From the NCBI GenBank assembly GCA_030740135.1, contig JASLXW010000027.1:1-16995 (forward strand): a stretch of 16,995 bases of DNA, written 5' to 3'. This DNA comes from Nitrospinota bacterium. GTDB taxonomy: Bacteria; UBA8248; JACPRG01. Positions 11,672-12,342 of the stretch are shown piece by piece (the stretch's first letter is position 1; each line of letters opens with the position of its first letter). The notes beneath the pieces are model-generated. The model had not been told where the DNA came from, did not search any database, and was given only the letters and a program-made list of their open reading frames with translations. Made by a program: the position numbers and the translations under genes.

Positions 11672-11823
11672 TCACGCCGGACCGCGCGGCCCGCAAGAGA
11701 ATCGCCGCCCAACACCCAAAACCGTTGCGCATGAAAGAGGGAAAATGCAATCCTAAGCAGAACACGCCATCCACCGGGTAACGCCGGTCAATACCCACCA
11801 TCCTTCAGAGAGGAAAATCCGCC

Positions 11824-12342
11824 ATGCCACCGGACATCCCACAAAGCACCTTCGGCGAGGAGCTGCCGAAAGAGGCCATGCGAAACACGATTGTCGTCGA
11901 GTGCGAGAACGAGGGCAAGCAGCTCCATCGGGCCACCCGGGGAGATTTCACCTGGCACTCCGACGAGCCGCCCCGCCTCGGCGGGGACAACAACCATCCC
12001 CAGCCCCTGACCTACCTCACCGCCGGAATCGGCCAGTGACTGCTCACCCAGGTGAAGCGGTACGCTTCCATGATGAAGCTCGAAGTCAGGTCGGTGAAGG
12101 TGCGCGTCGAGTCGGACATCTTCCTGGGGGGCTCCGTCCTCAAGGGGACGGTCTATAGCGGATTCAGCGAGGTGCGCACGCACTTCGAGCTGGAGTCGGA
12201 CGAAGCGCAAGAGGATCTGCTCAAGCTCATCCGGAACGCGAAACGGGGCTGCTTCGCCGAGAACATGGTCCACACGGCCGTCCCGGTGAAGGGCACGTAC
12301 AAGGTGAACGGGGAGGACGTCGGGGTGGACCTGGGGGATTAG
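11824..12342 (+). CDS. OsmC-like selenoprotein (in-frame TGA read as selenocysteine)
   Basis: Read through a single TGA at 12037-12039, this is a 172-residue OsmC/Ohr-superfamily protein, a family of thiol peroxidases and related redox proteins. The first part has the family pattern GDFTWHSDEPPRLGG (residues 40-54) and HPQPLTYLTAGIGQ (58-71). The TGA is codon 72, where OsmC proteins have the first redox cysteine of the 'laalgsC' motif. The frame then stays open for 100 codons that fit the rest of the domain: a helix (LLTQVKRYASMM), strands (KLEVRSVKVRVE), a FELESDEAQEDLLKLI helix and C143 in AKRGCFAENM, the position of the second OsmC cysteine. So Sec72 and C143 would form the redox pair. A SECIS-like hairpin follows the TGA. 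The start is preceded by GAGAGGA about ten bases upstream. The downstream half has no ribosome-binding site of its own. Alternatives are a nonsense mutation or sequencing error. SelA/B/C/D genes are not in the window. Confidence 0.85.
12054..12068 (+). promoter_or_regulatory. SECIS-like hairpin for selenocysteine insertion
   Basis: GAAGCG (12054-12059), loop GTA (12060-12062) and CGCTTC (12063-12068) form a perfect six-pair stem. If the last G-C pair opens, the loop is GGTAC. The loop begins with G and contains GU, as in known bacterial SECIS loops, and lies 20 bases after the TGA (12037-12039), inside the usual range of about 16-37. TGACT at the stop codon itself could also pair with AGTCA at 12084-12088 as an outer stem. 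SelB binding is inferred, not shown. Confidence 0.75.

Follow-up and report, generated by a model that had tools for sequence, protein, structure and literature searches.

A predicted OsmC-like selenoprotein gene on a Nitrospinota contig: conserved in-frame TGA, covarying SECIS-like hairpin and paralogous relatives

OsmC-like selenoproteins (COG1765/pfam02566) with a UxxT motif, in which U denotes selenocysteine (Sec), were reported in the Sargasso Sea survey of 2005, where a table counts 3 sequences (PMC1088965), and in the Global Ocean Sampling (GOS) survey of 2008, where the first number column of a table, whose heading was not visible to us, gives 5 (PMC2398784). They are also listed in reviews of 2022 (PMC9312934) and 2026 (PMC13188914), the table of the latter giving 1 for the family in what is apparently the Sec-number column, its heading again not visible. 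Here, we describe a gene of this type on a contig of 16,995 nucleotides (nt) from Nitrospinota bacterium (JASLXW010000027.1, assembly GCA_030740135.1), which was analysed over its whole length and is referred to as the window in the following. Its read-through product matches the NCBIfam model NF041052 (OsmC_like_Se, ‘OsmC-related (seleno)protein’) with 158.8 bits over residues 24–163, at a cut-off of 95; a homolog with Cys at the Sec position (P0006) reaches 154.5 bits and another Sec-type copy, in locus L066, 181.3 bits. We found no feature that sets the window product apart from this family. The gene thus adds one member to an already catalogued family, an assignment that is correct but not new, and our literature search found no paper linking a selenoprotein with Nitrospinota.

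In a first-pass annotation, which was made from the sequence alone, the locus had been described as two open reading frames (ORFs) that share a frame, are separated by exactly one TGA and together form one OsmC domain with a retained second cysteine. This description holds in all its parts (Table 1): the TGA corresponds to residue 72, the Pfam OsmC model (PF02566) matches residues 54–156 in one stretch across it (58.4 bits, cut-off 27.5), and the second cysteine is invariant among the aligned members. The G+C content by codon position follows a coding pattern on either side of the TGA (0.66/0.45/0.85 before, 0.63/0.34/0.91 after). Automatic annotation does yield two fragments, as expected, and many relatives are represented in the databases by their downstream part alone; of 38 proteins found, 19 were examined, and 17 of these begin 3′ of the TGA.

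Table 1. Coordinates of the predicted features of the OsmC-like gene in the window
Feature	Position	Strand	Description	Basis
OsmC-like selenoprotein gene (predicted)	11824..12342	+	172 amino acids, ATG to TAG, one in-frame TGA	Pfam OsmC and NCBIfam NF041052
Shine-Dalgarno-like AGAGG	11809..11813	+	10 bases 5′ of the ATG	Sequence
TGA codon, predicted to be read as Sec72	12037..12039	+	Motif ULLT (UxxT, residues 72–75)	Column conservation in copies and homologs
Cys143 codon TGC	12250..12252	+	Candidate partner of Sec72	Invariant in 38 rows of alignment A3
Bacterial SECIS-like hairpin (putative)	12049..12072	+	Stem 12049–12059 with 12063–12072, unpaired U 12053, apical loop GUA 12060–12062	Comparative

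Such fragments would also be left behind if the TGA were a point mutation or a sequencing error and the gene a two-piece pseudogene. This explanation has to contend, however, with the coding composition of both pieces and with the conservation of the codon itself. A profile search with one genome per species recovered 63 loci, and in every one of them the codon aligned with residue 72 is TGA, which is beyond chance. After loci from further genomes had been added and copies identical over the 99 bases from this codon had been merged, 99 remained: 95 close copies, the window included, which all have TGA followed by LLTQ, and four distant paralogs (27–30% identity) with the Cys codons TGC or TGT. 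The titles of the records with TGA-bearing close copies name several phyla. Given the same TGA in independent genomes (63/63 and 95/95), we reject the pseudogene or sequencing error, whose probability we regard as very small indeed. The residues next to the codon vary slightly, with GQ before the Sec in the window and GF or GY in the other listed copies. The near relatives of the protein that come with a named source (P0005, P0007) are labelled Nitrospinota, which makes a Nitrospinota-type host probable. A tblastn search of plasmids returned 27 records, every one below 60% identity, and neither P0001 as a single query against genome contigs and viral contigs nor alignment A1 against viral contigs gave anything useful.

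The first-pass annotation had further claimed that the TGA stands where the family has its catalytic cysteine, and had named the residue of the homologs at this column as a check. Among 23 long database homologs, the column is occupied by Cys in 18, by Ser in two (P0047, P0053) and by Trp in one (P0048), while the remaining two do not extend to it; these 23 are the longest of 120 listed (146 found), the other 97, with at most 117 residues, being taken as fragments by length. The check thus favors Sec and the claim stands, with the Ser and Trp residues as exceptions. The one Trp would agree with a host that reads TGA genome-wide as Trp or as some other ordinary amino acid, but the predominance of Cys at the column does not, and neither does the occurrence of tRNA-Sec in most of the relatives' genomes. 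Furthermore, TGA terminates five of the ten other complete genes of the window and is therefore an ordinary stop there; the lack of in-frame TGAs in these ten genes follows from the ORF-calling procedure and hence is no evidence. As genes on the same contig end in TGA at the expected length, we reject such a reassignment and grant it practically no probability.

In bacteria, SelB carrying Sec-tRNA(Sec) binds a hairpin downstream of the UGA, the Sec insertion sequence (SECIS), and the UGA is decoded as Sec. In the fdhF SECIS of Escherichia coli, as generally described, SelB contacts a bulged U and the GU of the loop. The hairpin behind the TGA in the window resembles this layout. Counted from the U of the UGA as position 1, it comprises the pairs 13–36, 14–35, 16–33, 18–32, 19–31, 20–30, 21–29, 22–28 and 23–27, with the loop G24 U25 A26 and an unpaired U17, and spans 10 to 33 nt 3′ of the codon. 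The GUA loop and the U at position 17 are present in 95 of 95 distinct copies. In an alignment of 93 copies, of which the 90 distinct ones were counted, pairing holds in 94.0% of 810 cells, compared to 7–58% when the 3′ side is slid. Double-sided changes occur in 27 cells against a mean of 4.1 after shuffling, a value that 0 of 500 shuffles reached; they sit at the pairs 16–33, 18–32, 19–31 and 20–30. Four of the nine pairs are invariant and therefore uninformative. The window departs from the majority at three adjacent pairs and retains pairing at all three, while the four Cys paralogs form 0–4 of the nine pairs and have no GUA loop. The Arg codon CGG at the loop is identical in every copy, but since four large window genes also use CGG more often than any other Arg codon (101/189), this is weak evidence by itself. 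In sum, the structure appears to be a bacterial SECIS-like element downstream of the TGA, with G as the first base of its loop.

Most of the relatives' genomes searched also appear to encode the machinery for Sec insertion. Fifty host genomes were entered via 50 of the 63 loci, several loci sharing an assembly, and 47 of them have a tRNA-Sec match of at least 65 bits, the next matches lying at or below 52 bits; at E 1e-11, only two of 14 control genomes, E. coli and M. jannaschii, have one. In a subset of 20 of these genomes, SelB scores above the cut-off in 15, compared to 2/14 controls, and lies within 1.5 kb of tRNA-Sec in seven of the 15. In the phylum of genome G001, here termed Nitrospinota-type after the record titles of loci that belong to it, and of which 18 genomes were searched, 13 of them already known to have the gene and five not, SelA is above the cut-off in 14 genomes (1/14 controls) and tRNA-Sec is found at E 1e-11 in 16. 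Likewise, among 200 genomes of one order, 57 have tRNA-Sec, and the five with the TGA gene, four of which were already known to carry it, all belong to these 57. A tRNA scan of the window itself gave nothing useful.

Several results weigh against the reading of the gene as a selenoprotein. Ser or Trp at the column in 3/23 long homologs does not fit it; the contigs that carry these sequences are 857 to 2340 bases long, and P0048 departs from the family sequence after GSVLKGT in a frameshift-like manner. Within the hairpin, the number of pairs with double-sided change, four, is reached by 53 of 500 shuffles, which do not keep the relatedness of the sequences, and pairs 18–32 and 16–33 are broken in 14 and 29 of the 90 distinct sequences, respectively. 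When 55 nt are folded freely, another structure is preferred over the conserved hairpin (−16.9 versus −7.7 kcal/mol), with a stability that is not unusual (z = −1.10), and Rfam has no match on the window or on the hairpin region. The earlier description of a hairpin with SECIS geometry is therefore upheld with respect to a covarying structure that is found by comparison, but not with respect to the free fold, which is unremarkable. Finally, at the loose limit of E 0.001 the tRNA-Sec model matches 14/14 control genomes, five of them above the cut-off, and there are genomes, all drafts, in which SelB, SelA or tRNA-Sec is missing. Against these points stand the TGA in all close copies, the Cys in most homologs, the covarying hairpin and the machinery in the relatives' genomes. 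Because of these four lines of evidence, which also support the Sec interpretation of the first-pass annotation, we estimate a probability of about 0.95 that Sec is inserted at the UGA and that the product belongs to the OsmC-like Se family of bacterial selenoproteins; this figure does not extend to the chemistry outlined below.

If so, SelB with its Sec-tRNA(Sec) would bind the hairpin 3′ of the UGA and residue 72 would be inserted as Sec. The protein would probably be a homodimer with the OsmC fold, in which the selenolate of Sec72 may be the first to attack an oxidized or electrophilic substrate; Cys143 could then resolve the intermediate via a Se–S bond, which a cellular dithiol would reduce. 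The product may function as a peroxidase or as a reductase. The survey selenoproteins share with it the OsmC domain, the UxxT motif and a hairpin with G in a small apical loop, and differ in number, with 3 and 5 in the tables compared to 95 distinct copies here, although this comparison is by description and not by alignment (PMC1088965, PMC2398784). The OsmC-like protein 3cje from Jannaschia, at 22–24% identity in structural alignments, resembles the window product in its Cys-x-x-Thr-Gln sequence, which coincides with the Sec position, and in a further Cys within GCF, but has Cys in place of Sec.

The Ohr/OsmC cysteine peroxidases have in common with the window product the fold, a reactive residue and a second Cys. 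Ohr uses a peroxidatic Cys (Cp), an Arg and a Glu, for instance Glu51 and Cys61 in XfOhr, and OsmC is likewise described as a thiol peroxidase (PMC5962072). One way to name a substrate for the selenoprotein would hence be a peroxidase of the Ohr type that acts on organic hydroperoxides and is reduced by lipoyl proteins, in which Sec replaces Cp and in which Sec72 and the invariant Cys143 could match the pair of Cp and resolving Cys. Yet the position ten residues before the Sec, where Ohr's spacing would demand the Glu, is occupied by Leu or Met in 38/38 aligned members, which also counts against the proposed chemistry, although a Glu may be placed elsewhere in the active site; the window product scores a mere 18.7 bits on the one Ohr model listed in NCBIfam, at a cut-off of 240; and a Pfam scan of 11 window genes revealed no MarR/OhrR-type family. 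We consider the Ohr-type function possible, with less than even odds.

Alternatively, the selenoprotein may not be a peroxidase at all, but a selenol-dependent reductase of a catabolic metabolite or electrophile. Its neighbors in the window look catabolic and comprise hydantoinases A and B, a three-subunit molybdenum dehydrogenase, an NMT1-type binding protein, a relative of old yellow enzyme, a cyclase, a Bmp-type binding protein, a second molybdenum dehydrogenase subunit and a thiamine pyrophosphate enzyme; for the flavin oxidoreductase, a relative labelled Nitrospinota (P0131) is 70% identical. The several diverged paralogs per genome, described below, also suggest different substrates. On the other hand, catabolic genes are common in such genomes, and the neighbor clusters that contain a window gene span at most four loci, the OsmC gene itself aside. 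A comparison of the flanks revealed no neighbor common to the window and many loci, one of the two comparisons being clouded by antisense frames. As no neighbor is widely shared, the context leaves the function unsettled, and we put the reductase forward tentatively, with less than even odds.

Two further neighborhood patterns were seen outside the window. A cluster of 97 ORFs, with a TctC-type transporter receptor as its representative, occurs in 38 of the loci L001–L063, and 49 of its members are no more than 2 kb away from an OsmC gene; this association may be due to chance. In five loci (L007, 8621–9541, and four others), an ORF follows the OsmC gene on the same strand, within 2 kb in three of them, and its one scanned representative has a C-terminal rubredoxin domain, by which the product might possibly serve as an electron donor.

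Turning to the distribution of the OsmC selenoproteins, the 18 genomes searched in the G001 phylum contain 98 matches. Of these, 71 exceed 100 bits and have exactly one internal TGA each, 23 fall below 37 bits and have no stop, and four are partial and intermediate, two with one TGA, one with two and one, which lies wholly 3′ of the TGA, with none. Strong Sec copies occur in all 18 genomes, at 1–10 per genome and several in every genome but one. The 200-genome sample of one order yielded 15 strong matches with one TGA each in five genomes, and three weak matches (43–51 bits) without TGA in three other genomes. Such proteins had been regarded in the first-pass annotation as predicted by surveys but rare; they were indeed reported in 2005 and 2008, but they are not rare in this phylum, and an NCBI family model exists.

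In a tree with 94 rows for Sec and 18 for Cys, from which L063 was left out owing to its broken frame, the Sec/Cys label needs five changes, of which well-supported branches force four. Sec and Cys have thus been exchanged more than once. The window adjoins four Cys rows; its end branch measures 1.05 and the support stays below the starred level, so that we are unsure of its placement. A fused form is seen in L097 (genome G055, contig C120, minus strand), where a single frame spans two OsmC domains and holds two TGAs at a distance of 191 codons, with no further stop between them and an identical hairpin sequence after each. The part enclosed by the TGAs shares 97% identity with P0046, from a cluster of eight members in eight contigs, and L097 likely encodes a two-Sec protein. 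The portions of the cited OsmC selenoprotein literature that we consulted do not mention such a fused form, although no dedicated literature search was made.

In L074 (1262/1868), L075 (1687/2275) and L084 (1044/1657), two OsmC selenoprotein genes follow one another in tandem at a distance of about 0.6 kb, and both genes of a pair have a TGA; in L074 and L075, the first gene's own stop precedes the second gene. For nine loci (L006, L018, L021, L022, L034, L040, L041, L050 and L059), the title of the metagenome-assembled genome refers to Bordetella parapertussis, Chitinophaga pinensis or Devosia; as the OsmC copies of these loci, with the exception of L041, cluster with those of uncultured betaproteobacteria, the titles are probably mislabelled. 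Finally, P0010, from a contig of 774 bp, joins the N-terminal part of the neighboring cyclase to the N-terminal half of the OsmC protein described here and ends exactly before the Sec position; given that the cyclase and OsmC genes are divergent in the window, it is likely a chimeric assembly.

Together, these observations lead us to a broader proposal, which we regard as conceivable but far from secure: OsmC selenoproteins would have expanded as paralogs in the Nitrospinota-type phylum of G001 (1–10 per genome) and in some uncultured betaproteobacteria, would mostly have kept Sec, including in a fused two-Sec form, and, with a Sec/Cys pair that lacks the Glu of Ohr, would catalyze a redox reaction unlike that of Ohr, probably on paralog-specific substrates. 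What the present analysis adds to the previous reports is the evidence from covariation, the number of copies per genome, a minimum of four Sec/Cys switches and the fused two-TGA form. UGA recoding is well supported for the gene in the window, which routine annotation breaks up into fragments, and a family reported from few survey sequences turns out to be multi-copy in all but one of the 18 genomes searched in the phylum of G001. With its repeated Sec/Cys switches and its two-TGA form, this family could serve to examine what proteins with the OsmC fold gain from Sec relative to Cys.
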